64,000 nt of DNA from Sarcocystis neurona. Its lineage: Eukaryota; Apicomplexa; Conoidasida; Eucoccidiorida; Sarcocystidae. The notes under the pieces are model-generated. The model was not told the DNA's origin, made no database searches, and saw only the letters and a list, made by a program, of their open reading frames with translations. Position numbers and translations under genes: made by a program. This document shows, piece after piece, positions 19,541 through 58,592 of this stretch. The stretch's first letter is position 1; every line of letters starts with the position of its first letter. The stretch spans positions 824,117 to 888,116 of the forward strand of contig KL647297.1 in NCBI GenBank assembly GCA_000727475.1, given 5' to 3'.

Positions 19541-20236
19541 GTTAGCACCTAGACGCAGACGCACGTACACACATCTATATATTGCGAGAGTCCGTCTTCT
19601 TGCTTTCCTCTTCTTCCGGCTCGTCTGCTCTTGGCACCCTCCTCCCTCTTGGCTCCCTTCTTATCATTTTTCCTGTTCGTGCAGCAGCCACAAAGAAGCT
19701 CCCCCTTAAGAGGAACAGGGACGGCTGCGGAGAGAAGAGGCGAGCCAATTTTTTCTTGCGCACGTCTGTGTCGGCGCAGATGAAGCCCCAGCCAGCAAGC
19801 AACAGGGCTTTCCCGGACGCACGTTGTCTTTGCACTGCAACAAAAGCAGCAGCAGGAGGTTTTACACGTGTTACATACTTTGCTGCTGGACCCGCCCTCT
19901 GTTTCCCTAGCGTCGTATCTCTCTAACTTCCCTTGTACAATGGAACTTACCGTTCTGCTTTCTTTGTTATTGTGTCTCTCTTTACTTCAAGTGCCTGGTT
20001 ATATAGAAGTGCCGCTCTGTTTAGCTTGAGCAAGCTCTTCGTGGTGTGGTCTTTACGCAGCTGCTGAAGCCCTGCGCCGTTGCCGACAGCCCCCTCTCTT
20101 TTCCCTGCTGCTGCAGCTGCTGTTGCTGGTCCGGCTGCAGCTGCTGGTGGCGCGCGCCCTGCAGCGGGTGCAGCAGCAGCTGTTGTTTACACGCGTGAAG
20201 GAGGAGGCCTGCGCTTCTCTGGGTCACTTCGTCGTA

Positions 20237-22284
20237 ATGAACTCCGGCAGCAGTGATGAGGAGGCCGCTCCCGCTCCCGCAGCTTCCCTCCCTGCTGCTA
20301 CCGCCCCTGCTGCTACTGCTGCTGCTGCTCCTGCCGCTGCTGCTACTGCTGGCGCAGGAGACGCAGACGCTGCGTCCACGGCTGGGGAAATCATCGGACG
20401 TCTGCTGCCGCAGCGCCGACAGCAACCGCAGCACGGCGCGCAGCAGCAGCAGCGGCAGCAGCAGGAGCTCCACCATTCGCAGCAACTCCACCACCGGCAA
20501 GACTTCCGGCAGATGCCGGAGCAGCGGCAGCTTCCCTCACAACAGCAACAGCACTTGCCACAGGAACAGCGGCAAGAAGAAAAGCGTCGGCAGGTAGAGC
20601 GCCGGCAGCTACCACAAGGGCAACATACTATGGAGCAGCAGGAGGAGGGGGCGGCCAGCGGTGTCCCCCCTGCTGGTGGCTGTGTGCGCCCTGCGACACC
20701 ATGCGAAAGTCCTGCAAACTCTTCGATTTCTCGCCAGCCGACGTCTGCTGCTGCTTCTCCTGTCGCTGCTGCTGCCACTGCTCCTCCTCTGCCTGTTGGT
20801 GCGTCGTCGCGTCCCCGTGGGAGCCAGTCTTCCTCGACGCGGGGGCCCCAGCAGCCGCAGCAGCAACCCCGGCAGCAGCAGCAGCAGCAACTCCGGCAGG
20901 AGCAGCAGCCGCAACGGCAGCAGCCGCGACAACAGCAGGGAGGGTGGCAACCTCAGCAGCAGCTGTTCGTAGAGGAGCAGCCGATGGGTCTGCTGCTGCT
21001 GCCGGTGCGTCGTGAAGGGTCTGATGCAGCAGACAGTCGTCAGACATCTGGGGGATCCCCTAGCACGCGGAGAAGCGGTAGCAGCGCAGGGCAGACCACT
21101 TTTGCTGGCGGCAGCCGCCACGCGGAAGCGGCAGCAGCACTTGTGTCTGTCTCTGCTGCTGCGGCTGGTGCGTCCGGCGGGAGCAGCAGCACGAGCAGGG
21201 GCAGCGGCAGTGACAGTAGCAGCAGTGGCAGTGGCAGTAGCAGCAGCAGCAGCCACGTTGCGAATAACAGCAGCAGCAGGAACGAGAGCACGAGACTCCG
21301 AGTTAGCGACGATGCCGGCAGGCACGGCGGTGGGCAAGGGGGCGAAGGTGCTCCGCGTCGGCAGCAGCAGCAGCAGCGGGGAGAAGACGCTGGTGGCAGC
21401 AGCGGCGGGGCAGGCGTCGCCGCGCCACAGCAGCAGCAGCAATACAGCAGGGTAACTTCCCGTATTTTGAATGTGTACGAAACGCCTCTCACTCGTCCGC
21501 TGTCTCCCTCTGGAGGCGGGCGTGGTGCTGCCGGGCTCATTGCTACTGCAGGAGTCGCCACACATGCTGGGGCACCAGGAGGAGCGGCAGGAGGAACACC
21601 AGGAGCGAGCGCGGCAGCAGCAGCAGGAGGAGGCGGAGCAGCAACTTGCCGAGGACGCGTCGGCTCCCCGCCGTTCTTCCCAGTGCGCGTGAGGTCTACC
21701 GCTGCAGGAGGAGAAAGAGGAAGAGGCGTAGAAACTGCGTTCCGCGCGAGCACAGCAGCACTAGCTGCTGCCGCAACGTGGCACAGCAGCAACGAGCAAA
21801 TGCGACAAGCAGCGCGAGGAGGAGGCGGAGGCCCGGGGGGAGGAGGCGGCTCTGCGCTGCCAGCAGGACAGTCTCTATTAACAAACACAGCAGGTGGCGC
21901 AGCATCTGTTGCCGCGGCCCCAGAGGTTTTTGAGTTGGTGCCCGTGGTGGGAAGTCTTGACCCCTACGGCGTGCGAAGGCGCCCGCGGCAGCAGCGCAGC
22001 CGGCAGGACCCCCCCAGGCGGGTCGCTGCCGACGACAGCTGGGGCGTACCTACAACACCGCAGGGGACTGCAGGAGGAGAGAAAGCGGCACGCGGAACCA
22101 AGTGCGGGGGCAGCAAAGAAGCAGCAGCAGCAGGAGCGCAGGGGGAGGCGGCGAGACGCGGAGGCAGAGATGGAGAACAGCGGGCCGCGCAGGCGCTGCA
22201 ACAGCCCTGTGGAAGTGCTGAGCCGCCGTCGGCCGCTGCTGCTGAACAGGAAGAGAGCGGCTCGGAAGAAGAGCAAGTCTTGCG
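20237..22284 (+). CDS. Probable SulP exon 1: low-complexity N-terminal region (Ala/Gln/Ser/Gly-rich)
   Basis: Open frame from ATG at 20237 (MNSGSSDEEAAPAPAAS) to a possible donor CTTGCG|gtgagg at 22284/22285. Ignoring that donor, the frame stops at 22288. It encodes long Gln, Ala, Ser and Gly runs, with a few less biased segments such as SRILNVYETPLTRPLSPSGG and FELVPVVGSLDPYGVRRRP. The donor leaves phase 2, which fits the phase-2 acceptor of exon 2. An in-frame ATG at 20123 is an alternative start. It could instead be an independent low-complexity protein of about 680-720 residues. No domain is recognised; inferred to be the cytoplasmic N-terminus. Confidence 0.5.
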
Positions 22285-25200
22285 GTGAGGCAGGGCAGCG
22301 AGAGTGATGACGCCAAGCGAAAGACAAGGAAGACGAAACGACGCCCCGCGCGCAGAAGAGCGGGGGAGGGGGGGGGAGTGCAGGCGTTGGCGCAGCAGCA
22401 CAGAACAACGGCAGGAGCAGAAGCAAGAAAGCAGCAGCAGCGTAGCGGCAGCACAGAGACGCAGGAGCAGCAGAGAGCGGTGCGCGACAGCGGCAGCCGC
22501 AGCAGCAGCCGGAGGGGCAGCTCCACAAAACCTTGCAGCCAGGGCGGCTGCAAAAGCGTCTCCAGCAGCAACAGGAAGCGACAGGGGGGAAATGACACGT
22601 GTTCTATTATACAACAAGCATACACATATAAGTACACGCGTGCAAGAAGCGATATATACATGTGTACGTCTATAGAGGGAGATTCTTAGCAGTTCAAGTC
22701 GCACAGTAGTGTTTTGCTGCGTGATTCCCACACAGACACACCGAGACTGAGGCAGTCGAATTTCTTCGTATCTCTCGCGGCTCTTGAGTGATAAATATGT
22801 ATGTGCTTCTTGATATAGACGAGGTGCTTCGTTCGTGCTGGTGACCAGCACGTAGACGCATGTATGGGTCGCTATCTGCAGAGGCGCGAGCCCGCTTTAT
22901 ACCGCTGTAGGCGGTCGCAGGGATTCGCGAGCGTGCAGGTTTGTGTAGGTGTATATCCAGGCAGAAGCGTGGCGTATACACGTATACGTGGAGACTCTCC
23001 GGCGGGTTGGTGACACAGAGGGAGAGGGACGCGGTCCTCGGCTATTTTTTCCGGCGTCTTTTGTCGGCGTTGCATCTCTCTCTTATATCCCCCATACACC
23101 GGCTTCCCTTCTTTTCTGGCTTCCGATGCGTCTTCTATTTGTCGGTTCTTCACCAGAGAAGTCCGCGGAGAACGTGTGTGGTGCAACACAACAACTGCGT
23201 CGCGTGTCTCCATTTGCTGTTGGTCTCCTTGCTGCTGTCTGCAGACGTCTGTTCTTCGAGAGACGCACACGGCGATGGAGACACGGCCGCGTGCGCCGTC
23301 TGTCTGTGCTCTCGCTTTATCTCGGGCTCAGTATCTGTCCGTCTCCTGCATGCGTCTTCTCATGTTTGTTTTGCTGAATAGGCGTTTTTGGCTCTTTTTA
23401 TTTTTCTCTGCTGTTCTCGCTGCAACTCTCGGTGTGCGTGGTGCTTCGCGTGTCTTGCTGCTGCGTCTTCGTGTGCCTCCTTCGCTGCTGCCTCCGTCCG
23501 TCTTTTCTCTGCGGCCTGGTCTGTTTCTCCGTGTGTGTTCTCGGGTGACGCGTCTTCTCTGCGACTGCTGTTCTTCTCGCAGGATCTCCCGTTGTTGGCT
23601 CCTTGTCATCTTCTTTTTCGACCGTTTGCTGTCCCTGCTGCTTTCCGCCTTTCTATGTCTCACCGGACTTGCGTGCAGCTCCTGCTACGGTGAAGAAGAA
23701 GAGTGGGAGAAGACGAAGGAACGGCAATATCGCTGCCGCAGATTTTGGCAGCGGCGCGTCGAAGTGATGCGCGGATATTCTTGGGGATGGGGATTTACGG
23801 CCACGCCGCGTGAGGGCGCTCAGTATTACTTGAAAGAGTTTTTTGCTGCTCTAGTCATTGCCCTCAGTAAGTATCTTGCACGAATAGCAGCAAAGAAGCT
23901 TGGGGTCTGCACCTGGCAGCGAACGTTTGTCCACGTGTTTCTTATGAGAAGAAGTCCCCCTCCCCTAGACGATCCCCCCGGCTGGCAAACAAACTCCGCT
24001 ACTTTTCTTTTCCTGTTGCTGCTGCTGCTGCTCTTCCTTCAGCTGCTGATATACGCGCGTCTTGCCTCACTATTTGCTGGTGTATATACATATGTTTTAG
24101 TAAGAGTCTCTGCGTTTCCACCTGCCTCCCTGCTGCTTGTCAACACGTCTTCCTTGGGACGACTTTGGCATATAGGTCTATAAATTCATTTGGTGGTAGC
24201 TGCGACTGCTGTTGCTGGTCCCCCGTCTGCTGCTGCTGAAAGCCACGTCCTGCTTCACTAGATGTACTACCTGTTTACGTACAAATATCAATGTAAAGAC
24301 ACGCCTATCTACACACGCATAGACAAACGCGCAAAAGATATATATATATATATATGCATATGCATATGCATATATATATATGGGTATGTATGCGTGTGTG
24401 TATGTGCGTATGTGTATAGACATGGCTGTAGATGGTTGTGTGCGCCCATAGGCATATCTCTGCATATATAAATGATGAGACACACACGTGAGGATTGCTG
24501 TTTTCCTGCATGTGATACGTCTGCTTGGCAGAAGAAATTTCTTTTTTCTCGTCTTTTTTCCATCTGTCCCTCTGTCCCTCCTCTCTCTTCATGCGCAGCG
24601 GTATCTGCGTATACCAGGCGCATATTTATTTGCACGACAGTCCTCCTACGTACTACAGCGCTGCTGCAGTTCCATATAAATGTACGCCCACACGCATATA
24701 TTCACAGTATATGCAGATGCCTATGTATAAGTCTATATGCGCATTGACTTGTGAATATACATACATATAAGAAACATGCAAAATATCGTACACTGTTGGG
24801 CCCACTATCAACAGGAATCTGCACACGTGTATATATATATATGTATATGCTTATGTATACGTGTATATGCATGTTGGCATGTGAATATATACACGTATAT
24901 ATATATATTTGAAGTATGTAACTCTCATACTCTGTTGGGCCGCCTATCAGTGGGAACGTGCATATATATGTATATATGTATGTATGTATATATATATATA
25001 TATGCATGCGTGTAGGTGCATATGCGTATGTGTAGGGGTGTGTGTGTGTAGTTGCGTCTTTTTCCTCGTTTTGTCAGTGTGTGTCTCCCCGTTCGTTTTC
25101 GGTTTGTATCTCGGTGGGCTCGTCTTCAAGCCAGAACACCTTTTTTTCTTCCTCAGTGTATTCAAGCCCTACATATACATATATGGATTTATTTCTATTT

Positions 25201-27820
25201 TGAAGAGGCTCACGTTCGTAGGTATACCCGAGCCCGTACGTATATATATTCAAATAGAGAAAGAACGGGCTTGTGCATGCATCCGTGCGCACCTCTGGCT
25301 ATTCGATATATGGACAACAACAAAAGTAGCCACTACCCATATATGTCAGGTATATAAGTGGGCGTATCTGTCTACGTCTATCCATCTTTCTATATAAATA
25401 TATATATGAGAAACATGAATGTAGGGCGACGAAGTATACGCAGGAGACATACACAGCCGTACACACACCGCACCTACACGTAGGCATCTACATATACATA
25501 TATATGATAATCATACGTTCGTCCTCACTGAAAAGACTGCAAGACTCTTAGATATCTAATATATATATATTCACGCTCGTCTATATATGCATATATGAGT
25601 GCGAGAGCATGTATATAGGACGACGACGTATACGCAGAAAGTGCTGCTCCTCTCCTTCTCTCTGTGTTTCTGTGTGTGCGTTTCGTAGATATCTAATGTA
25701 CGTATATATTCACAGTCACATATGTGTGTATATATATACAGAGAGAGAAATATATGTATCATATATATATATATGTACCGTGGACGCCAAAGTAGACGCA
25801 GGAAGTGCAGTCTCTTTGTCTCAGTGTCTCTGTGTATTCTGTTCGTAGATATCTAATATATATGTATGTATTGACACATACATATACATAGAGAGAGAGA
25901 GAGACAAAGGACACGTATCCTGGAAGACCAAATATACGGAGAAAGTGCTTTTTTCCTCTTTTTTTGTCTCTTTTCTTCTCTGAGTTCTTGTGTGGTTTTG
26001 CGGCTCTTCGTCCGCCGTGAGATGCCCGTTTGCGTGCGCGCAGCAGCTGCTTCCGCTGAAGAGTCATCGGCGGGAGCCACTCGAGCCCCCGTGTTGGCTT
26101 CAAAATTTGTAAACCTCCATAGCGGCGCATTATTACTCCCTTCTTGTTGAATAATATTCGACTACCCAATACAGTAAAAATTTGTGTTTACGCGCAACTT
26201 CCGTGCGGTCCGCGCAGTGTGTGCACATACGAGAAAAGGCCTCCCACTTTCTTCTCCTCCTGCTCCTGTCTAAACTTTTTTGGGGCGGTGCCTCGGCGAT
26301 TTCTCTACTTTTGTGGCACTTTTTTTTTTCTCGTGGAGTCGCTTCTCGGTTGGTAGTAGTATATGTGCTGCGCGCGCAGGTCTTGGCCCTTTTCTTCGTC
26401 TCTTTGGATCTTCCGGGCTTCCTGCTGCGTAGATTCCCTTTCTTCAGTGTCCCTCTCCTCTTTTCGTTGTCCTCCGCAAAAATATTTGCACTGCACGGCT
26501 GTTCATTCGTGGCTCATTTTCGCTTCTTCGTACTCCTCCTCCGCCTCCATCTCCACCCCGACTTTTTTCACCTCCTTTCCGTCTTCGTGTTTCTATCGGT
26601 TGTTTGCTGCTGCCTGGGACGGCTTTCTCTGCAGGAGGGCGTCCTTTCCGGTGTCTCTGCTCTGCGCACACTTTCTCTTCTTTTTTGTGTGTGCCCCCTC
26701 TTTTTTTCGTCCTTCCGTCTTTTCCTTTCGTGCGTGTCTTCACGCTTTCGGTCTATTATTTTCCTCCCCTTTCGTTGCCCACCCCCTGTCTACCTCGTGA
26801 AAGTTTTGCCTTCCCTTCTGTTTTCTCTGTATATACACACATATTAGAGTCTTCTTCACGTTTTGCCTTCCACTTTCCTACGTGCTTTTGTCTCTCCTCT
26901 TTCTTTCCCGGTGTACGTACACCCCATTCTTCACTTCTCGGCGTGCTTTTTTCTCGTTTCTTTTGCCACTCCCCTCTTTCTTTAAGACGCACGTTACCTT
27001 CTTTTTCTTCTCTGTGTGCCCTGCTTTTCCTTTCATTTCTCATTCGTTTCCGCGCTACCTCCTCTTCCCTTCTTTCTGGCCGCTCTTTTCACTTTTCCCC
27101 TCCTCCCTTCCTCCTCTTCGGATTTCCTCGTGCTGTTCTTTCGCCTTCTGTTCTTCTCATTCCCGTTCTCCTTCTGTGGCTTCTCCGCCGCTTCCTGTTT
27201 TTCTCCGTCTTCCTCAACAGCCACCTGAAACTTTTCGTCTGCACTTCTCCTCCGTCGCTGCCTTCTCGTCTTTTTCTTCTTTTCTCGTTCTGCGGTCTTT
27301 ATTCCTCCGCCGGCCGCGTCTTTTTCCGCGATTTCTTCTCCTTCTCTGCTGCGCAGCACAAGTTCCTGAAGCAGCAAGTTTTGCGATAATGGCGCATCTC
27401 CCTCCTGCGCTCGGCGTCCATAGCGCCTGGCTCATCGGCATTTTTGCATGTGCCTTGGGTGGCAGACCCGGGATGATTACCGGAGTTACTGCCTCTTTCG
27501 TAAGAGATGCACTTCCTTGGAAAAGTGTTCGCCTTCCCTCCCACCCCTCCCTCACAAAAGCGAGACTCTCCTCCTTCCCTTGTCCAGCGCGCGTTCCTCT
27601 TCTTTTCCACATACGTACAAACACGCATATATATATATATATATATAATGTATCACATGTGGTATATGTGTAATGCACATATATATACATTTGTACGTAC
27701 AAATGTATATACAAATATGTATACATAGATTTGTACATATGTACATATTGGTGCGCTGTTGGAACCGCTCTTTACTCATAAATATATATATATGTATATA
27801 TATTCGTACCCACGCGTATA

Positions 27821-27854
<34 letters not shown>

Positions 27855-30800
27855 TACGTACCCATATATGTGTATATATATATATACGTACACACACACA
27901 TACATACCCACACTCGTACACATACGCGTACACAGGCGTACGTACATATATATATATATATATACATCCACACATACATCCACACACGCACACACATGCG
28001 TGCATATATGTATATATAAATATATATATATATATATATACACACGTATATAATCGTCCAAACGCATGCACGTACACACACACTTGCAAATATACGTAGA
28101 AGCGCATTCACACAAACACACACACACACACATACACAATACGTATGTCCCGGTGTATCAGATATTTTCATTTGTGCCGGGTCCAGGGGAGCGATTTTTG
28201 ATGGAACCATGGAGAAAAATTGACTGGTGGTAGAAGGAGACCCTCGGGACTTGAACGCAGCGGTGAGAAGAGAGAGCGGTGCGGGGCGTGAAGCCGGAAG
28301 CATCAGGCGCCAAGAAAGGAATTTTTCTGTCTTTGATCACTGCGTTTGTGCGAGGACAGCAACGCGAAGCCTGGCGGTGGTGGACCACTTTTTGTGCTCA
28401 AGTGTTTGTATGTGTGTGAGGAAGAGAGAGGGAGTTAAATTAGACTCCGCTGCTTTCATTTCTTGCCAGCGGTGCTGGACGCCTGCTGCACGCAGAAACG
28501 TAGAAATGAATCCATCAGCGTTCCGCGGTGCTGCAGGAGCAGCAGCAGCGGCAGCAGCAATTTGGTGAAGAGAATTGACAGTCGTAAGAATTGCGCTCAC
28601 GTCTGCCCTACGTGTGCGTCTGTATGCAGGGAATATCGAACAAAAGAATGTACATATCTAGATGTATGTGTTTGTATCTGCTTTAGCCTCGGTTGCCCTC
28701 TTCTTCGTCGTGTCTTCGGCTTCGAGATATATCTGCAGTTCATTTAAAGCTCTATAGAATTCTTCGCGTCTTCTCCCTCCTCCGCGTTGTTCTCCCCTCG
28801 TTGATTTGTCTGGCTCGTTTCTCGTCTGTGCCTCGCGGACGACGGTTACATCGCTGCTGCTCCTGCTGTCGCGGTTGCTGGTGTCTGTCCGCCTCGTGCC
28901 TGCTGCGCTGCTAGTGTTCCTGCTGTGAGAACAGCAGCAGCTGCGGTGACTCCTCCTGCTCCGCGCGGCTCGTGCAGTTGCTGCTGCTGCACTCTCTGCA
29001 GTGGCCGTTGCTACAGCTGCTGCGGGGCCCGTGCTGTTTTTGCTGCTGCGGCTACTGCTGCGGTAGTTCCGTTTGTTCTTGATTTCATCGCTGCTGCTGT
29101 TGCTGCGTGACGGGTGCTGCTGTTGTACGCTGTTGCCGGCACGGGCGGTGTTGTGCGGCTGCCGTTGCTGTCGTGATATCCCCTCGTCGCGCAGGCAGCA
29201 ACTTTGAGTACCTTCAACAACGAAGCCTGCGCGGGTGCGGCGTTTTCTTCGGAAGGTGCAGGTGCAGCTGGCGCCGGCGCGGCTGCCTGTATGAGCAGCC
29301 CTGGGGCTCGCGAGACACTGGTGTTCTCGGTTCTCCTGGCCGGCTTGCTGCTGCTGCTAGCTGCCTACGTCCGTCTTGCCCCGGTGGTCGCGCAGCTCAT
29401 TCCGGCGTCAGTTATTATCGGCTTCTGCAATGGCATCGCCGTCGTCATCTGCGTCGCGCAGCTCAGCGTTTTTACGGAGCCCGACACCGGCGCCTATGTC
29501 CGCGGCGCTGCTGCTATATGGATGGCCGTGGAGTGCTGTCTTGCTGCCTTTCTGGTAGAAGGCTGGCCAGCCATTCCGCTTGTATGTCCGCTCCGCCAAA
29601 CCTCTGCTGCTGTGCTGCTGCCGCGGCTGCTCTTCGGAGGCCCCGCCTCCGTCTGCTCGTCCTGCTGTCGCGTGGGGGCACGTGCTGCTGCTGTTGCTGC
29701 TGCTCCTGGACGGCCCGTCCTGCCTGCGTCTGTTGCCGCTGCTTTGCCCCTCGGGCGCCGCGCCATCTGCTGCTGCTCTTACGCTGGTATGTATGCGGCT
29801 GCTTGCCTCTTCTGTTGCGGATGCGCTTGCTGCTGCTGCGGCAGCGGCACCACTGCGTGTGTCTGAGGGGCCGCCATAGCTGCTGTGTTGCTGCCTGAAT
29901 CTACGCAGCTGCTGCGGTGTTGTTGCGCTTTTTGAAGCTCGCGCTACTGCTGCTGCTGCTGCGTCTGCTGCTCTCTGTGCTGCGCCGGCTGTGTGCGTCC
30001 AGGTGGGGAAGCTCGTTCCTGGGTCCCTAGTGGCGATGCTCGCAGCAGGCGTGCTCGAATTTGCTCTCGTGCGAGCAACTTTCAAAGAGAAAACGCCAAC
30101 TATAGGAGAGATAGCCGAGTCAAATGCTGACACGTCTCTTCCCGTCTTCTTCTTCACCCAGGAAAATATTAGTCTCCCTGCTGTCGAGTGGAAGAAAGTC
30201 TGCGTTCAAGGTAAGAAACGCTCTTCGCTATACTGCCCCCGCTGCTGCTCGCACGCCAGCTGCCACGCATTGCTCCAGCACCTGCTGCAGTCCTGCGTTT
30301 ACTCCGGGTCACCGCGTACCATTGCTGCAGCGATTGCTGCAGCTGCTGCTGCCGTGGTTGCTGCCACTGCTGCTGCGACCGCTCCTGTTGCTCGCACTGC
30401 TGCTGCTGTTGTCGCTGCGACTGCTGCTGCTGTTGCTGGCACGTTCCCGGTAGTGCTGTCCACGCTGACGCTGCTACTGCCCGTTCCTTGCTGCCGTTGC
30501 TTGTGCGTGAAAGGCTGCTGTTACTGCCGCGCTTGCCCTGATTTTGCTTCCTGTACGTCCGGGTTGCTGCTGCTGCTGCTCGACTGGCGAACGGTGATAG
30601 CGCGTCCACTTGTCTTGCTGCTGCCCGTTCAGTTGCTTCATCACTCTTCGTTGTGCTGCAGCTGCTGGTGCTGCTGTGAGTAGCTCTGTGTGTGTCACTC
30701 CTTTGCTGCTGCTTTGCTGCTGCTGCGGTTTTGCTGCCTGAGGGCACCTGTCCCTGCTGCTGTCGTTGCAGTTGGACCAGCTCCTGAGCCTGCTGCACTT

Positions 30801-33800
30801 GCCGTTTCTTCTGCCACGCTCCTGCTGTTGCCGCCTCTTCTGCCACGCTCCTGCTGTTGCCGCTGCTTCTGTCGCGCTCCTGCTGTTGCCGTAGCTTCTG
30901 CCACGCTCCTGCTGTTACCGCCCCTTCTGCCGCGCTCGTGCTGTTGCCGTGGCCTCTGCTGCGGTCCTGCTGCTTGTTAAACTGCCGTTTTCTTAATGCG
31001 CCGCTCCTGCTGCTGCTCGAGCCACTTCTCTCCTGCTGCGGCGTCCTCTCTGCTGCTGCTGCCGCTTCTTCCCTCATGCCACACTGCTGCCGGCTGTCTG
31101 CTGCTGCGGCTGCTGCAGCCGCTTCTTCTTTCCTGCTGCCCTTTTTCGTCGTTGCTGCTACTGCTGTCGCACCGTTGCTGCAGCTCCTTCTTCTGTGTGT
31201 CCTGCACGCCAGGGCTTGTCTTGAGCGTAGTAGCGGTGCTCGAGACTCTCATGACAATAGAAATGATGGACTACTTCTCTGCGCAAGAAGCTCTGCCGCC
31301 GGAAGGAGACGCAGCAGCAGCAGGGAGTGGCAGCAGCGGCAGCGATGAGGAGGCGAAGGAGGCGGCCGCAGCAGCAGCAGCGGCCCCGAGCGTGTGGCGG
31401 CGATGGTGGCGCTGCTTCGTTGGCAAGAAAGCAGCCGGCGACGCGAAGAAGAGGAAGACGGAGGGAGAGAAGAACGAGAAGGAGGCAAAGGAGAGGCAGG
31501 GACAGCAGCAGGGAAAGCAGCAGGTGCAGCAGAAACTCATGCAGCGGTCCGTTCAAGACAAGACGGGAAGAAATTTGCAGCAGCAGCAGCAACAGCGTGA
31601 GGAAGAAGGAGCCACTCTGAGTGAAAAGAGGATGCCGTTTCTTCCTTCCTGTCTTTTGCGCGTGTGGGGGTGGAAGCCTCGCCGGACGAATGCCAAGAAA
31701 AATACTGCTGCTGCTGCACGTGCTGCTGCTGCTGCTTCTCTCTCCTCTTCCCTACGGGCGGATTGCGCCGCTTTCTTCAAAGATCACTTCTCTGCTCACC
31801 AGAGAACAGCACAGGCCGTGCGTTGTCGCTGCTGTGCTGCAGCAGCTGCTCATCCGGTCTTTGTCCTTCAGCATCAGCAGGAGGACGCCGCGGAGCAGCA
31901 GGACGAGGACGACAGCAGGAAGGCTGCAGCAGCAATGACAGTAGCAGCCACCGATGCCACAGAAGCGACAGCAACAGCAAAACAGCGAGAAGAACGAGCT
32001 GGGGAAGCGGCGCGTGGACAGCCTTTAGCAGCAGCAGCATCTTCAACAGCAGCTCGAGGAGGCAGCGGCTCCTGCTGCTGCAGCACCGGCGGTGGGGCTT
32101 GTGCCCCAACGGAGACACGCGAGCCACAACAAATCCGGTGTGGAGACACCCCGCAGCTGCAGCAACAGCAGCAGAACACAAGAGACAGCAGCAAACGGCG
32201 TGGGCAGGCTGCAGAAGACGAGAAAGCAGCTGCTGCTGCTGGTACTTCGGGAGAGAAGCCTACGACTGCTACTGCTGGTGTCGCAGGGGATGCAGAAGAA
32301 GAAGCTTTGCTTGTTTCCCGTAGCGTAGACGCACTGCCGAGGTGCTGGCGAGAGCAAGAGCAGCCGCGCTACTGCGGCGAGGAGGCTGGGGCAGAGTCCA
32401 GGGACAACGGCGTGGGGTGTCGCAGGGACGGGAGGAGGCAAAGCAGCAGCAACACAAGAAAGAATAGAGGCCGCTGCACTTGGCGCGTTATAAAGCGGAG
32501 AAGAAGCGGCAGAGGATTGAGCAGCAGCGGAAGCAGCCGGAAGAAAAGTAGCGTGATATCCGTCTGTCTCCCCTCCCTGCAGCAACTCATGCTGGGGAAA
32601 GCTAATCCTCGCAGCAGCAGCGGCAGTCCTCCGCTGTCTCGTCTTGTGACTACTACAGCAGGAGGCGAGGAAGTAGCAGAGGTCCTACCACGCCTTCAAA
32701 GCAGCTGCATTACTGACGAGGGGAAGAAGGAAGTTCCGCGGGGACGCTGCTCCTGCTGCTGCGGGGGAGTCGGCAGCAGCAACTGCTGTGTATCGTCCTC
32801 CTCCACGTCGTCATTTTGCTGCTGCAGCAACGCCGCTGGCGCCGACAGCGTGCGCAGCCCGTCCACGCGCTGTTGCTGCTGCTGCCGGTGTCCTTCAGCG
32901 CAACAACGAGTGACGCCGGCCAGCAGCAACTCCGCCGGCTGCAACAGCTACACCGAAGGAGACGGCCGCAGCAGCGGTGGCTGCTGCTGCTCGTCCGCGT
33001 CCTGCTGCTGCTGCCGCTGCTGCAGGCGCATCGAAGGAGACGAGACAAGAAGAAGAAGCAGCAGCATAGGGATGACGCGATGCGGCTGCAGGAGAAGCAG
33101 CAGCAGCAGCGTCACGGAGGAGAAGAAGAAGAGCAGCAGCTGGGGAAGAAAAAAGTGCGGGTGCGACAGCAGTTGCAGCACTACAGCAGTGCCGCTATGC
33201 GAACAACAGCAGGTTGGGGCATGGATGCAGCCGCAGACCACAGAGGGAGCTCGTGCTGCTGGTTTATTATTTGCAGGAGGAGGAGAAACAGCAGGGAAAC
33301 AAACTTCAAGCTCTTCTGCTTCGTTATTTCTCGGACCCGCTGCTGCTGCTGCAGCATCTTTTCCGGATCTCAACGCGTCGAGCTGCTCCACCGTGCTGCC
33401 GACTCCCTCAGGCCGACAGCACCGGCCTGCAGAGAGCTGCTGCAGCAGCTACGCCCTGCTGCAGCGCGAAGAGGAAGGAAGAAGAGCAGCAGCAGCAGCC
33501 GTGGGAGAGACTGCGGAGGGGGGGACGTTCGGACGCTGCCGCTGCTGCTGCTGCGGCGGCGGACCGGCAAGCCAGCGGTCCCGAGTCGCCCGCCTACCGC
33601 AGCAGCAGCAGCAGCAGGCGAGGGAAGAGCATGGGGATGAGAGGCAGCCACGACGACGTTGGGACGCGCAGGCGTTTGCCCGTGGACAGCGGCTGCAGCA
33701 ACCCGGCGAGCAGCAGAAGGAAGGGAAGGAGAAGAAAGCGCAGCAGCAGGCAGAGGAAGTCGCGCAGCAGCAGGCAGAGGAAGTCGCGCAGCAGCAGGCA

Positions 33801-36800
33801 GAGGAAGTCGCGCAGCAGCAGGCAGAGGAAGTCGCGCAGCAGCAGGCAGAGGACGTCGCGCAGCAGCAGGCAGAGGAAGTCGCGCAGCAGCAGGCAGAGG
33901 AAGACGCGCAGCAGATGGCAGCGGCCGGCGCTTTCCTTGAAGGGGAGAGCAACATGGGAGAGACACTCTTGGAAGAGACAACAAAGCTGCAGCAGCAGGA
34001 AGAGGAAGACCACAGAAACGAAGAAGAAGACGAAGACGAAGAAGGAAGAAGGCGTTTCCAAGGGAAGAAAGCAGTTCTGGGCAACGGAAGTCAGCAGCTA
34101 TGGGCGACGGGCGTGGCGAATATTATCTGCGGACTCTTCGGTGGCATGGGCGGTGGGGCGATGATTGGCTTGTCAGTCATGAACCGCCGTAGCGGAGGAG
34201 AAGGAAAAGAATCGGGTATGTTCCCCTTTTCTCTCACATCTTCATTTAATGAACTCCCGTGCAAAAGGATACGAAGAAGAGGATTCTCGTGCGTTTGCTT
34301 CCTGTCCCACCTCTTCGTTTAATGAAGAAAAGGAGTCGGACGTGTTCCCTTCGTCACTTTTTCAACGATTTTCCGTGATTTGTCCACGTCCCTTCACAGG
34401 TGTACATACACGCAGACGCAGAGCTTCGAACGTGCCGCGCACCAGCAGCTCCCCGCCTGTGTCTGCGAGGAGAATTATTTTTTCTTTTAACGGCGGGAGA
34501 ACATCTCGCCGGCCGTGAGTACGCCGTGCCCCCCCCCCCACAGCAGACGAAGAGAGACGTTTTCGTCGCTATTCTTCGCGAGATACATACACATATATAT
34601 GTGCTACTTAACATGCACGGCGGTCTACGGCGTCTGCAGCAGCACTGCCAAAGAAAGTGGTCTGCTCTTCTTCGGAGACAACTCATAATGGGGACGGAGG
34701 CGGTTTTTTGCTTATCGAACAGAAATAAGTCCTGCTGCACGGGGTTGCTTTCCTCTCCCTCTGTGTACGGGCTTCCTTTTGTGGGGGCTTGCTGCTGCAG
34801 TGAGAATGACCGAAGTAATACTGCCCGCCTTTTGTCAAACAGAAATGGCTCGCTGCGCCTGCCTGCGTCTCTCTTTGCAGGGTCTCGCTTCTCTCTATTT
34901 TTCTGCAGGGGCCCGCTTCTGCATCTGCAGGCCTCTAGCTTCAGTTATATACACATCTGTCTGTGTGTACGTGAAAGGACGCATCTTGCTGCGGACAGCA
35001 ACATTCGCCATTTTCTATCGCAGTGTGTACGTCCGCACGGGGGTAGAAGACCACCCAGGTATTCGCACAGGATACCTAGCTGTCCACTGAATTTCTTCTC
35101 TCGAGGTGGCGAGTTTCTCTTCTCCACAAAAAAGAGGACCCAAGTGAGGGAACTGCAGGAAGATACGGCGACCCGCATCATGCAAGAGATCGCAGCAGCA
35201 CCTGCCCGTCTCTGTACGGCCGTGTGCAGCTGCGTAGACGTATGCACACACATATCCACACAAGTAGACCTGTGTCGACCTCTATCACATTCTCCCTCTA
35301 TATATAGGTGGATATTTGTCTATCGACGAGGTCCTATTATTCTTTTCCTCTATATATGCATGTATATATTTATGTGGATTTCGTCGGCGTGTCTCGTGCT
35401 GTCGCCCTCTGTGTCTCCGTCTCCCAATGTGACCTTTTTCCCGACTATGTGTGGCTTCCTTTCTCTATATACGTATATCTTGAATGTGTGTGTGTATATG
35501 CATTTTTACCGATCCTCGTCGTCCTCTCTCTCTTTGAAGATGTCCACGTATATATGTGTGTGTGTGTATTTGTCGACCTGTCACATGTTTTCTTTTTGTT
35601 ACACTTACTGATGAATTTCGGGGACCTGTCTCATCTGTCTTCCTCTCCGTCTCTTCATAAATGAATTCCCGCTTGTGGCTGTGTTAGCTACGGAGGAGCA
35701 CGTGCTGCAGAGACGGACGTGTGCGTCCTGTTGCTGCTGTCAACGAGAGACGCACAGGAGGACCCCCTCTGGCGCAGCTGCTGCTGCTGCTTCTGCTTCT
35801 CGGACCCGGTCTCGGCTTATATGCGGAGACCTCGGGCTAGACTGATAGACTTCTTGTCTCTTTGCCCATCTGCTGCTGTGTGCCAATATAAAAAGTGTCG
35901 ATGCCCAAGACAGAGAAGGACTTGCCCCCTCACAAACACCGGTCTGTGTGTGTATGTGTATGTATGTGTATGTGTGTATGTGTGTGTCCCTCTCTATATT
36001 AATATGCATGTGTCTATATGTATACCTTTCTGTCTTTCTATCTATCGTCCTCTCCACGGCCACCGGTCTGTGTATGTGCATATATATGTGTGTATGTGTG
36101 TGTCTTGCTCGCTGTGTATATATATATATCTTCCGGTCTTTGTCTGTGCACCTCCGTTTTCCTTCCTAAAAAGTGTGGGGAACTCTCGATGAACTCGGCG
36201 TTGCTCTGCAAATTTCTACTCTCTAGAAACAGAGTAGGGGATATGTTCCTCCTCTTCCCTACGCGCACATGCACCTATATATATGGGTATATATATCTAT
36301 ATGTTTCTATATCTATATGTGTACAGAGAGATAGATAGCTACGTGAGTGTGTATATGTATCTTGAAAGAGTGTAGTGACCCCAAGACGCCTGAATATGTA
36401 GGTCGACGTATATAGGTGTGCTTGTGTTTATACGTATATTTGTATATATCTGTGCGTGTATCTCTCTCTACATACATATGTATATATCTACACGTGTGTA
36501 TTTACATATATGTATATGTGGGCGTAAGTATGAATATATATATGTATATCTGTATGTGTGCGTATGTATATATATTGACGTGTGTGTACTCATCGAGTGT
36601 AATCACATGTATAAGTTGTCCTTTTCAGCAAGTGTGTCCGTCACACGTTTCTGTTGGGGCTACGAGTGGACGCAGGGGAGTGCCGGCGGCGTCTTCGTGA
36701 TGTTGCTGGTGCAGACGCTGCAGCTGCACCGAACAAAACTCCTCCCCTCCCTTCCCTTGTCCTTTTCTGGCCCGACGAAGTCTCTGTGTCTTCCTTCATA

Positions 36801-39800
36801 CACACATCCACGTGCGTTTCTCGGCGCCTGCGTTCCTCGCTTTCCGCTGCGCGCGTCCGCTGCTGTTGGCTCCTGCTGCTGCTGCTGCTGACCCGGGCCT
36901 CAACGCCGCACGCATGTGTGTGGGTGTGCGTGCTGCCGCTTTATTACTTGCTGGCGTCTCTGTATGTTGTGGGGTCGGCAGGCGTGCTGCAGGCGCTGCT
37001 GGTGCTGCTGCTGATTGCCGCGGCGTCCCGGGTGCTGAATTTTCTCCCCATCGCCTCCCTCGCAGGCATCATGTTCTGCGTCGCCTTCCACACTTTCAAG
37101 TGGTTTTCCGTCCCCGTGGTCATTGCCACATTTCTGCCGGAGTCTGTGCGGCAGCTCCACCCACGTCTCGGCCAAAAAATCGCCCGTTCGGACGCGCTCA
37201 TCGTCGTCCTCGTCACCCTCGCATGCGTATGTTGTCAAGAAAAGAAGAAGGGGCTTCTCACCTGGCAGAGCGAAGAATTTGCAGAAAAGCCGCCCCCCCC
37301 CCCCCCCGCCACCGCCAGGGGAAGCGGAAGGGAACGGACGAGGGGGCTCTCTCTGCAGAAAAAGGACTCTGCGCATACACACACATATATATACGTACAC
37401 ATGCAGAGACACGTAGGTGGTATGTATATATACAGACGTGCTGCTCTACAGAGACATATAGATCACATGGACGAGCAGCAGGTGTACGTAGACACTACTG
37501 TTATGTAGGAGATCCACACAGACGTACGTATATGTGTGTGTGTAGCTGTACGTATACGTAGGTGTCATATATAAAGAAATACATGTATACAAACACTTAT
37601 ATATGTACATATATATGTACCTATAAAAAAATATATACAAACACTTATATATGTACATATATATGTACCTGTGCATATACGTATGTGTCATATGTACATG
37701 TGTACGCTTGTATGTATGTGTGTATGGATGGATGTATATATACATACGTAACAAATATACGAATATAGACACCACGACCTTCGTAGAATTGTGGAGCTGT
37801 CTATATAGAGTATGGATACGCACACACACTCGTTTATATATGTGGAACTGTATGCATGTATATAAATATATGTATATGCATGCGTGTAGCTGTACGTACA
37901 TATATATATATATATATATGTATACACGTGCGCGTGTTGTAGACGCGCGACGAGGTTTACGTCTGCAGGGGCAGTGCTCGGATACGTGCGTCGAACTTCT
38001 CTTCCCCACGCCCGGGCATACACATGAGGAAATGGTTGTATATGCGAATAAATGAAGTATCTGTGTTTTTCTCGGAGGAAAAGTCCGGCAGATGTGTCTG
38101 CAGAGCTTCTATTCGAACGGGCAGCAAAAGCAGCAGCAGCAGAAGAGCGGGGAGGACCTGCTACGGTGTCGCGACCCTCGCGTGTGGGGACTTCACACCG
38201 ACGTCTGCTGCTGCTGCTGCGTCTGCGCGCGTTACCTCGGTTCTGCTGCTGCTGCAAGGCGACCTCGGGCTGCTGCACGCTCCCAGGTGGTTTTCCTCCT
38301 CCTGCTGCTCCTCTCTCCCGTGTGCCCCTTCATTCTCTGCTGCTGCTCCTGCTGCTCCTGTCTCCCGTGTGCCCCTTCATTCTCTGCTGCTGCTCCTGCT
38401 GCTGCAGGGCCGAGTCTCTCCTGCTGCGCGCGGCTGCTGTCGTCACCTCGTGTCGCCGCCACGTGTGCGTCCGTCCCTCGTGCTGCTGGTGCTGCACGCG
38501 TTGCTGCTCACTCCCGCGCTGACGGCTGTCCGTTCCTCCCCCTCCTTCTCCTGCCGTGTGTGGGACTGCCATGTGTGGGACTGCGGCATGTGTGTGGCTG
38601 CTGGTGCTGTCCAGAAATTTTTCAACTTGGCGTTGGCTGCCGGTCTGGGAGTCTTCGTTGCCGCTCTCGTGTTTGCTTGGGAAGCGAACCGCCGCTTCTG
38701 CGTCGAGGCAGCCGAGGACGTGAAACGCGGCGTGAAGGTGATTTTCTCCTTTAGATTCTCCCCCCTCTGATCATCTTTTTTCCGCATATGTCGTCATTTG
38801 TCGTTTTGTCGTCGGAGGCTCTTCTCTTTTCCCCCCAAAACTTGTCGCTGTGCTCCCCGTGTCTCCGTGTCTCCATCTGCTGCCTCGTCTCCTCCCCCTC
38901 TTCTGCCCCGCCCTTCCCGTCCTCTGCGTGTCTCTCGCTTTGGCAACTGCCGCGTTGTATCCCTCTGTCTCGGTGTCTCCGTCTTTTCTCTCATTTAGTG
39001 ACTGTCTTTGTGTCTGCTGTTCTTCTCCTTTCCTTTCCCCTTTCTGGCGCCTTGGCTTCCGTAGAGGAGCGCGCTGTTGTTGTGGCCCGGGCCTGACGAG
39101 AACTTCTTTGTTCTTCGCTGTTGATGCGCCGGACAACAACTTTTCATGCTGCTGGGGGACGACCTCTTCTTTTTTTTGTGTTGTTCACTCTGGTCGTAGT
39201 AGTCGGTCTTTTTCCACGCAGGCAGCTCTCTTCAGCCATCCCCGCCTTTTTTGCTTCTCGAGAGTCCCCTTTTTTCTGTTCTATACGAGAGTCACTTCTG
39301 CCAGAAACAGGCCTTTGTTCTTCACTTTGTCTTTCTCTTGATGTCTTTCGCCTCTGTCCGATTTCCTCCTTCAGTAGCAATTTTCTACTCCCAGCAAAAC
39401 TTTTCTTTTGACCCTGGCCATCTCTTTCCGCACACCGCGTGTCTCTTCTCGCCCAACTTCTTCGCCGCCTTTACATCTGTTCCATCTTGCTCCTGCTTCT
39501 CCTGCTCCTGGCTGCTGCTGCGACATCTGGTGGGGTGCCCGTTGCTACTGCTGCTCTTGCGCCTGCTGCCCCTGCGCCCGCTGCTCCTGCGCCCGCTGCT
39601 CCTGCGTTTGCTGCACCTGCGCGTGCTGCTCCTGCGTTTGCTGCTCCTGCGTTTGCTGCTCCTGCGTTTGCTGCTCCTGCGTTTGCTGCTCCTGCGTTTG
39701 CTGCTCCTGCGTTTGCTGCTACGATTACGTCTATGGCGCGGCCCCCGTCACTGCTGCTGCCGCTGGCGCTGGTCCGCTGTTGCGACTTGTCTTTCTCCTC

Positions 39801-42800
39801 TTCCTCTCCTTTTCCTTCCTTTTTTTCTCGTAATTGCTGTCCTCGCTTCGTTGTCGTTGGTGAACCTACTCACGTGTCTCCGGCTCTCCTGCTGCTGCTG
39901 TACTGCTGCTGCTCCTCCTGCTCCTTGTCGTGCACGTGTTTCTGCTGCTGGCACGTGCCTGCTGTCACCGGTCACTCCTCCACTTCCACGTCTCCGACGA
40001 GACGCTGCCGCTGGTGCTGTTGCTGCTGCAGTGCTGTTGCCGTTGTGAAGATGCGGCTCGCACCGATGCTGTCCCTCGGTCATTGACGCTGCTTTACATG
40101 TACGCGCGCGCGTCCTGCTGTTACTGCAGCTGCGGCCTTTGTTGTTGCTGCTCTTGCTGCTGCTGTTCCTGCTGCTGCTTCTGCAGTTGTTGCTGCTGGG
40201 CCCGTTACTGCTGCTGTTGCCGTTGCTACTGCCGTCTTGCTGCTCTTGCAACTGTTCCTGTTGCTGTTGGTCCGGCTGCGACTCCCGCTCTTGCTGTTGC
40301 CGCTGCTCTCTTGCTGTTAACAGCAGCCTCTTTGCAGCTGCCATCTTCCTGCTGCCATCTTGCTGCTGCGGTCCGCGCTGCAACTCCTGCTGTTGCTGCT
40401 GCTCTTGCCGAACTTTTTCTTCTTTTCTATTGCTGCTGCTCCTCTGTTGCTACATCGCTGTTTCTGTGGCTGCTGTCTGTGTGTATGTTTGCAGTATTAT
40501 GAGGTGCACGGGCCGCTATGTTTTAGCACGGCCGCTAAATTTGAAAGTGCGTTCTCCTACGACGAGGATCCTCCAACAGTTATCTGCGTCTTGAGCGGCA
40601 GTACGCGCTTATTTGATTACAGCGCGATGGCAACGATGGACACGGTTAGCAGGAATTACAAGAGAAGAAGAAAAGTCTTGCATTTCAAGGTACGCTTCTC
40701 TCTCTGTGTTGGCTACCTGCATCTCTTCTAACAATAACAAGAAGAAAGTCCCTGCAGAAAAGAATTCTACGCCACGGCCTCTCTGTCTCTAGGTTCTGAC
40801 TGCCGCGACCCGCTGCACCACCGTTCAACAGCACCTCGGCAGCGCAACCCCCACCCCGCCACCCACCCATACATATATATATGTGGACATACATGTATAT
40901 ATATATGTATATATACATGTGAGCAGTGTGTGGAGCCATCATCTCACGAGGCTGGACATATTTTGGGAGAGGAAGAAGGAGGTGGACCTGGGCCGAGGAT
41001 ATGAGAAGAGGCGCACGTTCGTTTTTTCTGCGAGGCGCGCCGTCGTCCTGCAGCGCTTTCCAGCAGCGACAGCAGCAGGAAAGAAGCCGCAACGTCAGCA
41101 CGTGTATACACACCTGAGCGTGCCGCGGTATATAGAGTGCAAAAGGAAGCGTTTGGCGAGACGACAGCGATTAAATCCGCGTGTGTGTTCTGCTGCGTGT
41201 ATGCCGAAGCAAAAAACGGCCCTGCGGCTGGTCGTAGAGCAACGGGAGAAGCCTCTTCCTGAAGGTGGTTTCTTGAGTAGACGTCGCAGGAAGGGGGGAG
41301 TCCCAGCAGCCGCAGAAGCAAACAGAGACACACAGCAGCAGCAGCAGCAGAGGCAGAAGAAGCGGCGGAAGAGTGGGGGGAAAAAGAGCAGGAAGTGCTG
41401 CTGTTGAAAGACGTGCGCGCAGTGAAAAGTGCTGTCGAAGCAGCAACGACAGCAGCAGAAACAAAAGCCGGAGAAGACGAAGACGCAGCCGCAGCAGTCG
41501 CAGCAGTAGACTTCGAGCATCATAGAAAGGAGCGTATACGCTCTGCAGGGGGACATCGCAAGACAAGTGGTACACGCTCAGCCACTCGACAGACGCTGCA
41601 GCAGGAACTGGCGACGTTTTCTTCTTTTTAAAGAGAAGAACTCGGGCGGGCAGCAGCTGCCTCCAAATCCTCTCTGTGTAGAAGCTATACCGGTGGAGAA
41701 CACGCGTCTCTGCCGTGTATATCTGTACCCGTGTCTGTCTTCGTGTCGGCGTCTTCCTCTGCAGTTGCTGCCAACAAATGGGTTGTTGACACGTTTCTCT
41801 AGATTCTCTCCATGTATACATATGTATATATATATATATGTTGTTGACACGTTTCTGTAGATTCTCTCCATATATACATATACGTATATATATATATATA
41901 TGTTGTTGACACGTTTCTCTAGATTCTCTCCATATACATATATATATATGTCCACAAGGGAGGTTTACATGTATATTTGTTTGTCTGTGTTAATGTTTGT
42001 ATTGAGGCAGATGGTGGGCATGCGCAGGGACGGTAAATTATATTTTCGCATGCATCTGTGCCTGTCATTGCGTCCCGGCCTCCTTTGCCAGTATACGGGC
42101 ATAGATATGTAGGGGCATAGAGAATATCTATGGCGAACTCCATCTGTCTACCTCCATGTATATAGACACGCCCGCATGCAGTAAACATGTATATTTAGAT
42201 AAGACGTATTTTTTCTATTGTATCTATGAGGCGCACAAACACCACGGGCGTATCTATACACATATATTTATATTTATATTGCACACCATATGATTATTTG
42301 TCTTTATGCAATGTGCATATGTAAAAGTACCATCTACACATATATATATAAGCGGTGTGTGTATGTGTAGATAGAATACGTGTTTGTACCTCATGACTGT
42401 GTCGACCTATATATATACATACACACGCGGTATACTTGTATGTATATACATATATATGCATGTACATGTATGACTCTGAACAGTGTCCACTGAAAAAATT
42501 AGAACCATATACATAAACCTTTCATATTATTGACTTTGTATATGCGTTGTGTGTATATATATATATCGTATATGTGTATGTATATGTACATCACGTGTAT
42601 ATACATGTATCAACGTATATGTGAAGGCAACCAACATCATCACACAGACAAGTTTGCGCTTTTCTACAGAAGAGAAACACTTTAAAATGAAGAAGGGGTT
42701 CATCCTTTCTCTTCCTTTGCAGTGCGCGGGAAATTCTGGCACACAGACACACACTTCCACATCAGCATTTCGTACATACATGTATATATATATACCTCCA

Positions 42801-57732: not shown

Positions 57733-58424
57733 CTGAGGGAAAAGGCGTCGTTGCAACAGGCTGCCTGGCACCGATTAGCCGCTCCACCAACACTAGCAAC
57801 TGCATACGACAGATCGCCTGCCGTCAACAGCAGCAGCGGCACAGACAAACGTGAGTCTGTGTGTGCTCCGGCAGCACCAGAAACATACGGCGACGCACCT
57901 CCAACAGCCGCAGTACAGGTAGTAAAAAAATTCTGCCCATCAACAGCAGCAACAGAAATGGTGACTCCTCTCACCAACAGCAACAAACGAAGAAAGATAC
58001 ATCTCCACGGCAACCGGAGCAACAAAAGACATTTCCTACAAGAGCTCCACAGTAAAAAGAAACGGTAGTTCCTACAGAGAGAGCACCGAATATCTATCGA
58101 TGCAGCAGCAGCAGGAGTGGAACATACAAAAGAAGCGCTCGACAGAACTACTTCTGTATTACAACGGTAGCAAGAGCAAGGCGAGCATGACAAAAACAGG
58201 AAGAACTCAGCAGCAATAACTGCAGGACACACGACAGCGGTTCCGTCCCTTCTCAAATTTTCATTTCCTGCCCCCACTCGGCTGTAACTGCTTGCTCCTC
58301 GCGTTGCTACTGTGATGCTGCCCTACTGGTGCGTTGATCGCTGCGCTCTGCGACTCCTCCTGCGTTTCTGGGCCATTCGGATCGCTGTCTTTTAAACCAG
58401 GCGCCGTGCCCCCTGCTGCCCCTG

Positions 58425-58592
58425 CCTACTAGAAAGCGGAGGATCTCCCGCTTCCCTTATACAAAGGCATGGGTCGTTGTGTAGAGGTGGCTGTGTAACA
58501 CAGTCAAGCCTACTAGAAAGGGGAGGATCTCCCGCTTCCCTTATACAAAGGCGCGGGTCGTTGTGTAGAGGTGGCTGTGTAACACAGTCAAG
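58425..58592. repeat. 84-bp tandem duplication, in frame on the minus strand
   Basis: Copies at 58425-58508 and 58509-58592 differ at only about three positions. The minus-strand frame at 58392-58667 stays open and carries a duplicated 28-residue unit (LDCVTQPPLHNDP-[RC]-LCIREAGD...). The length is a multiple of three, but coding is unproven. Confidence 0.92.

Follow-up and report, generated by a model that had tools for sequence, protein, structure and literature searches.

The window analyzed here, 64,000 nucleotides of the Sarcocystis neurona contig KL647297.1 (positions 824,117 to 888,116), contains on its plus strand a gene that, judged from its sequence, encodes a SulP/SLC26-type anion transporter; transport itself is predicted. 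Within the sixth exon of this gene (31213-34215, 3003 bp), a low-complexity insert of 923 codons (31305-34073) occupies the turn between transmembrane spans 8 and 9 (TM8 and TM9). The frame through the insert is open, the gene joins in phase, and the insert site is common to the gene and its orthologues in other coccidia. We consider it likely that the insert is an ancestral disordered cytosolic TM8-TM9 loop of coccidian SulP proteins, which is about three times longer here and has grown from CAG-type repeats.

An open exon with a 923-codon insert

A sequence-only reading of the window had described 31213-34215 as one exon whose two ends are neighbours in ordinary SulP transporters, and both coordinates and frame turned out to be exact. 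The exon follows a CAG acceptor (AG ending at 31212) and is followed by the donor GTATGT from 34216; both junctions are in phase 1 and agree with the phases of the neighbouring exons. Alignment with orthologues identifies the 5' flank, GLVLSVVAVLETLMTIEMMDYFSAQEALPPE (starting with VLETLMT), as SulP TM8 and the 3' flank, VLGNGSQQLWATGVANIICGLFGGMGGGAMIGLSVMN (also given as WATGVANIICGLFGGMGGGAMIGLSVMN), as TM9-TM10. Pfam by itself detected the second flank only, and weakly (PF00916, 18.8 bits, cut-off 23.2). The SulP core of the gene minus the insert scored 86.4 bits with the same Sulfate_transp profile (E 2.1e-24). Together with eight other exons (23731-44615), exon 6 can be joined in phase into 1825 codons without a stop.

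The insert lies between the motifs ALPPE and VLGNG, which are conserved in four coccidian orthologues; in the alignment of all five sequences the second motif reads V(K/L)G(D/N)G. The uninterrupted frame rich in Ala, Gln, Ser, Glu and Cys that had been predicted here is present over all 923 codons, and its composition is A 14.7%, S 10.6%, Q 9.9%, R 9.4%, E 9.1%, G 8.8% and C 6.1%, with 26% charged residues. Sequence entropy is below 3.0 bits in 51% of 25-residue windows. The bulk of the insert is not homopolymeric: one run has at least seven identical residues (8 Ala), and 11 runs have at least five. Repeat detection and translation showed that a 24-bp tandem array of 7.7 copies (33738-33921) encodes (AQQQAEEV)n.

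The insert frame contains no stop codon, and the remaining two plus-strand frames contain 21 and 11. Markov sequences of equal composition had a mean of 10.6 stops per frame, and a stop-free frame was obtained once at order 2 and never at orders 3 and 5 (2000 simulations per order). The Poisson chance of 923 stop-free codons is approximately 6e-5 at the simulation rate, or 4e-7 at the rate of the other two frames. These values argue against the explanation that nearly the whole insert is intronic or otherwise non-coding and is open merely since CAG/CTG repeats lack stops. Such tracts are indeed without a stop in any frame, introns or antisense strands within the window hold open frames of 359-410 aa, and in two introns of the gene, of 421 and 1002 nt, one minus-strand frame is free of stops. 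However, all seven scanned introns contain stops in each plus-strand frame. As genomic background we used 144 kb of the same genome in six frames, all of it around SulP loci. One PF00916 search of the genome returned four such loci (the window gene and the loci C3, C7 and C26). Only three stop-free frames in the 144 kb reach at least 1000 aa, all of them SulP: the exon 6 frame, C3 and C26. The next-longest have 752 aa (N-terminal exon of the window gene), 730 aa (C3 region) and 570 aa (C7 region), the latter two, unassigned and outside the window, being below the exon 6 frame. The purine fraction in 250-base windows also flips at both exon ends, from 0.32 to 0.69 across the start and from 0.62 to 0.46 across the end, and the inserts that orthologues have at this position are open as well (see below). 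A non-coding insert is thus very improbable, and an intron comprising the whole insert was rejected on the frame statistics together with the orthologue inserts. We infer that translation probably extends across the whole insert.

The phase of CTG-type tracts was compared as well. For tracts of at least 8 bases, the insert has none in Leu phase, 5 in Ala phase and 9 in Cys phase, and the seven introns have 21 in each; the binomial p for this bias is 0.007 if the tracts are independent, which they are not. Intron CTG tracts are thus spread evenly over the three phases. On the coding strand CTG exceeds CAG in six of the seven introns (27500-43574), and exon 6 contains 182 CAG and 92 CTG.

The part of the insert that is most intron-like by composition is a Cys/Ser-rich stretch of TGC and AGC tracts at 32740-33060. 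The Cys runs noted there by the sequence-only reading are present, and all six CTG-type tracts of at least 8 bases in the stretch are in Cys phase. This bears on the explanation that the loop is real but shorter, because part of the insert is spliced out in frame as at least one unrecognised intron, which might lie at 32.74-33.06 kb or begin with the GT at 32242. The 250 bases from 32750 have the lowest purine fraction of the insert (0.46, other windows 0.50-0.69), a value inside the intron range of this gene. Among GT-AG pairs that keep the frame, 32242-32898 (657 nt) is the best with 14.5, inside the 4.2-15.0 that the eight known introns score in leave-one-out. Under a seven-exon model with one misplaced acceptor, the pair 32242-32769 (528 nt) reaches 14.6 and exceeds all six real pairs (1.0-13.6). 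The splice model was built on eight introns, internal pairs were scored without leave-one-out, and the scoring does not discriminate: 154 of 200 order-1 simulations of the insert contained an equal or better frame-keeping pair. Within 32700-33080 the best pair scores only 8.3, and, given the background rate of stops, an intron of more than approximately 190-280 codons would be expected to lack stops in less than 5% of cases. We consider such an intron rather unlikely.

Inserts at the same site in other coccidia

A protein search with the upstream core found the orthologues, and of the searches that supplied proteins for comparison one gave the best 120 of 3499 matches. The alignment with the Toxoplasma SulP orthologue that the sequence-only reading had suggested places an insert at the same TM8-TM9 site. 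Same-site inserts are present in the orthologues from Toxoplasma gondii (333 residues), Hammondia (312), Besnoitia (322) and Neospora (383), and a partial Cystoisospora suis protein, which has no TM8, contains 271 residues before the TM9 motif. Coccidian insertions had been expected to be usually far shorter and to lie in loops or termini. The insert in the window gene is exceptionally long, as that reading had it; it is not peculiar to this gene, given the 312-383 residues in four other genera.

The spacing between TM8 and TM9 was measured by motif match in 125 proteins, of which 110 were measurable and 15 had no motif match. Among the matches listed, 104 of the 110 proteins have a spacing of 39 residues; the six with a longer one are all coccidian and come from four genera, three of them from Toxoplasma. 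An alignment of 27 sequences gave the same picture: the TM8-TM9 segment has 43 residues in 18 outgroup proteins, 46 in the C26 paralogue, 372-433 in five coccidian proteins (three from Toxoplasma) and 973 in the window gene. The two other sequences in this alignment are P0010, which does not span the insert site, and the partial P0035. The outgroup proteins closest to the gene, four in number, carry transcript accessions and are presumably from gregarines, going by the accession prefix.

Closest among known systems are the Toxoplasma gondii SulP-family inorganic anion transporter (P0002, 1497 aa) and its Hammondia, Besnoitia and Neospora orthologues, which resemble the window gene in the core, the insert site and the low-complexity N- and C-terminal tails. 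Toxoplasma is also represented by partial models covering residues 635-1115 (P0031) and 1117-1497 (P0010), and by P0012, whose match runs from 635 to 1197 with additional sequence inserted between 705 and 706. Since the breakpoints of these partial models coincide with exon borders of the window gene, the Toxoplasma insert appears to lie in a single exon too, and the exon borders would be common to both genes.

Outside the insert, the Toxoplasma protein is 95% identical to that of Hammondia before the insert and 100% after it, 87% and 92% identical to that of Neospora, and 61% and 77% identical to the window protein. For the inserts themselves the values are 85%, 40% and 31%, the last from a forced global alignment. 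The Toxoplasma-group inserts are rich in Ser, Gly, Arg, Glu and Ala and have a common SSENTS motif (matched by eye), whereas the window insert has Ala, Gln, Ser and Cys tracts. The position of the insert is thus conserved and its sequence is not. Because of the site, the exon context and the absence elsewhere, we consider common ancestry of the inserts probable. Taken together, the comparisons suggest that the insert is an old feature of the coccidian family, extreme in the window gene, and not a misread gene.

The switch from conserved core to unrelated sequence is abrupt, as it would be if a mobile element or a foreign domain had landed in the gene. Yet no Pfam family was found at E <=1 in 922 insert codons, and the genome search returned a single full-length match; of 53 matches in all, the remaining 52 cover between 32 and 239 bases of the query, 39 of them overlapping the 24-bp array. 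These copy numbers are a lower bound, since scoring covered 40 of the 106 candidates and passed over simple repeats. Same-site inserts in other genera likewise speak against a landing of this kind, which we regard as extremely improbable. A mobile element or duplicated segment was rejected on the single full-length match among the genome candidates scored and the lack of a Pfam family.

The Neospora model P0005 is without a 41-residue stretch (KFLN...QIK) that corresponds to one exon of the window gene; the annotation seems to be at fault. Genes of this kind may thus be truncated or divided by prediction programs, as P0005 warns.

Predicted topology, origin and role of the loop

An AlphaFold2 model of the outgroup orthologue P0006 has a mean predicted local distance difference test (pLDDT) of 76 and a predicted template modelling score (pTM) of 0.72. 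It shows, by our count, 14 spans followed by a STAS-like domain; the TM numbers used here were set by eye from this model. The SLC26 architecture has 14 spans in two inverted halves, and short helices at 127-134 and 394-402 of this outgroup model may correspond to its half-helices TM3 and TM10. Foldseek searches with the model returned SLC26/SulP structures at the top, with SLC26Dg (5da0) as the best (E 1.9e-22); SLC26Dg, prestin and AtSULTR4;1 are predicted to share the core fold of the window SulP. Unlike in the window gene, the TM8-TM9 turn of SLC26Dg is short where aligned. With the STAS profile PF01740 the window protein scored 15.1 bits (E 0.02) and P0006 17.4 bits, both under the cut-off of 22.6; in the P0006 model this region consists of alternating strands and helices, and the model matches SLC26Dg.

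In the P0006 model the insert site falls in the turn behind span 8 of the 14, and the STAS domain follows the last, so the N-terminus, the loop and the STAS domain are predicted to lie on one side of the membrane. The STAS side of SLC26 proteins is the cytosol, and TM8 is part of the moving transport domain. The loop had been described as either cytosolic or lumenal; the orthologue model would put it on the STAS side. That it is larger than the transporter core holds true, with 923 residues compared to 510 in the aligned core (exon 3 to STAS exon). The maximum of 19-residue hydropathy is 1.06 in the insert and 2.53 in the core, and the insert contains no membrane-helix candidate. In an AlphaFold2 model of the Toxoplasma TM7-TM10 segment, the insert has a pLDDT of approximately 30-53 and neither helix nor strand, which fits disorder weakly. 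By extension the window insert would be disordered in vivo.

Under the loop reading, a short cytosolic TM8-TM9 turn was replaced by a disordered segment, probably in the coccidian ancestor, and this segment would have grown to approximately 920 residues here as CAG-type triplet tracts expanded and decayed. Neither the fold nor the topology of the transporter should be altered, because the two ends of the insert emerge on one face of the membrane and no part of it looks like a membrane helix. The insert may be pictured as a long flexible chain that hangs close to the STAS domain, attached where the transport domain ends on the cytosolic side.

CAG-type tracts of at least 8 bases in the insert encode Gln (15), Ser (12) and Ala (6). 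Passages in PMC9131526 and PMC7564333 describe CAG repeats in Eimeria genomes that encode Ala, Ser and Gln runs even in well-conserved genes, a habit which the CAG-type tracts and the 24-bp array of the insert fit. In contrast to these Eimeria-type repeats, the window insert is one segment of 923 residues at one structural site, is mostly degenerate and contains Cys tracts. Eimeria-type homopolymeric amino acid repeats (HAAR) are runs of at least seven identical residues from CAG-type tracts; the insert contains one of this kind, the 8-Ala run.

Several observations weigh against a translated loop of common coccidian origin. The stop-free minus-strand frame in the 1002-nt intron means that repeat-rich DNA can stay open for more than 300 codons. 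The CTG-tract phase is a moderate sign of protein-level constraint, because neighbouring tracts depend on each other, because 2 of 24 tracts are in Leu phase when those of at least 6 bases are counted (Leu 2, Ala 8, Cys 14), and because the C3 SulP gene has 6 of 28 in Leu phase (Leu 6, Ala 21, Cys 1). Poly-Cys is also unusual, accounting for 9 of 14 CTG-type tracts in the insert and for 1 of 28 in C3. In local alignments, the window insert showed no similarity above shuffled sequences to the inserts of Toxoplasma (61 of 100 shuffles reach the real score), Besnoitia (25 of 100) or Cystoisospora (13 of 100), and the Neospora insert is borderline (5 of 100). Since the inserts are judged homologous by their position, independent insertions at a single permissive site are conceivable. 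Protein searches that each scored the approximately 8000 best word-sharing candidates in a length range, one of them among the best 120 of 3499 matches, returned no Eimeria or Cyclospora orthologue. The Toxoplasma segment model is poor overall (mean pLDDT 44, pTM 0.26).

As to its role, the loop is most likely a tolerated, fast-evolving spacer or a regulatory tether carrying phosphorylation sites, partner sites or trafficking signals, and would not be catalytic. A stronger version would make it a coccidia-specific, disordered and phosphorylatable regulatory domain on the transport domain that faces the STAS domain and gates anion flux, in the way that the R region of CFTR gates its channel. 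Selection would then keep its presence, location and non-hydrophobicity while leaving the sequence free. This regulatory reading is an attractive hypothesis by analogy, which we regard as improbable. According to a passage in PMC7564333, repeat tracts in Eimeria seem not to affect how proteins fold or work. The same transporter site is expanded in every spanning coccidian orthologue found (six proteins from four genera), whereas none of the 104 others measured among the matches listed has an expansion there. The SulP insert is therefore well suited to testing whether a permissive hinge only tolerates such disorder or puts it to use. The openly licensed literature searched contained no description of a coccidian SulP TM8-TM9 insert; a table in PMC3879359 names a Toxoplasma inorganic anion transporter gene, which is not shown there to be the P0002 gene.

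Remaining exons and other SulP loci

The remaining exons, all on the plus strand, were placed with the C26 paralogue from the same genome as the first guide and the Toxoplasma orthologue as the next. An N-terminal exon of at most 683 codons (20237-22285), rich in Ala, Gln, Ser and Gly, has a provisional start codon and 3' end. It lies in the 752-aa open frame at 20030-22285, and tblastn with the Toxoplasma orthologue points to the same frame. The exon was assigned to the gene because of conserved islands, SRVTSRI and PEVFELVPVVG, which correspond to SRVSPRI and PETFQLMPVVG in the Toxoplasma orthologue (matched by eye).

Exon 2 (23731-23866, 5' boundary provisional) encodes the start of TM1, with 59-61% identity to Besnoitia and Toxoplasma; its donor is A|GTAAGT, and it joins exon 3 as ALTQVPE. 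Exon 3 (27357-27499) covers the end of TM1, TM2 and the start of TM3 and was placed by its orthologue match. TM3 to TM6 are encoded by exon 4 (29195-29581), which is consistent in phase and detected by PF00916 (E 4.1e-7), and TM7 with the TM7-TM8 linker by exon 5 (30003-30210), based on phase and orthologue match. Downstream of the insert, exon 7 (36982-37226) encodes TM11 to TM13 with 69-71% identity to Toxoplasma and Besnoitia, and exon 8 (38615-38737) encodes TM13-TM14 and a linker with 80% identity to Toxoplasma. Exon 9 (40495-40689) encodes part of the putative STAS domain; over 40489-40689 the identity to Toxoplasma and Besnoitia is 79%. The last exon (43578-44615) contains the end of the putative STAS domain, where GVSHGCMNMMAKANHLLQHVDYELIEL matches GMSHGCLNMMAKANHLMQHMDYELIEL, a low-complexity C-terminal tail and the stop codon.

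The paralogue C3 (C3:1043411-1048675) is a SulP gene consisting of a single 1755-aa open frame. Like the window gene it carries a large Ala/Ser-rich stretch inside the core in one open frame; unlike in the window gene, this stretch lies upstream of the TM8 equivalent, and the TM8-TM9 turn is short (by eye). C26 (C26:1003279-1006896) is a single 1206-aa open frame; its N-terminus is long and rich in Ser and Ala, and its TM8-TM9 turn is short. The C7 locus, whose matches fall between 963884 and 974592, is a SulP/SLC26-type gene of several exons on the minus strand.

An intron of the window SulP gene contains a 15-bp tandem array of 11.5 copies (TGCTGCTCCTGCGTT, 39549-39720). Outside the gene, the window holds a perfect 103-bp tandem duplication (8515-8718) and an 84-bp one with 96% identity (58424-58594).

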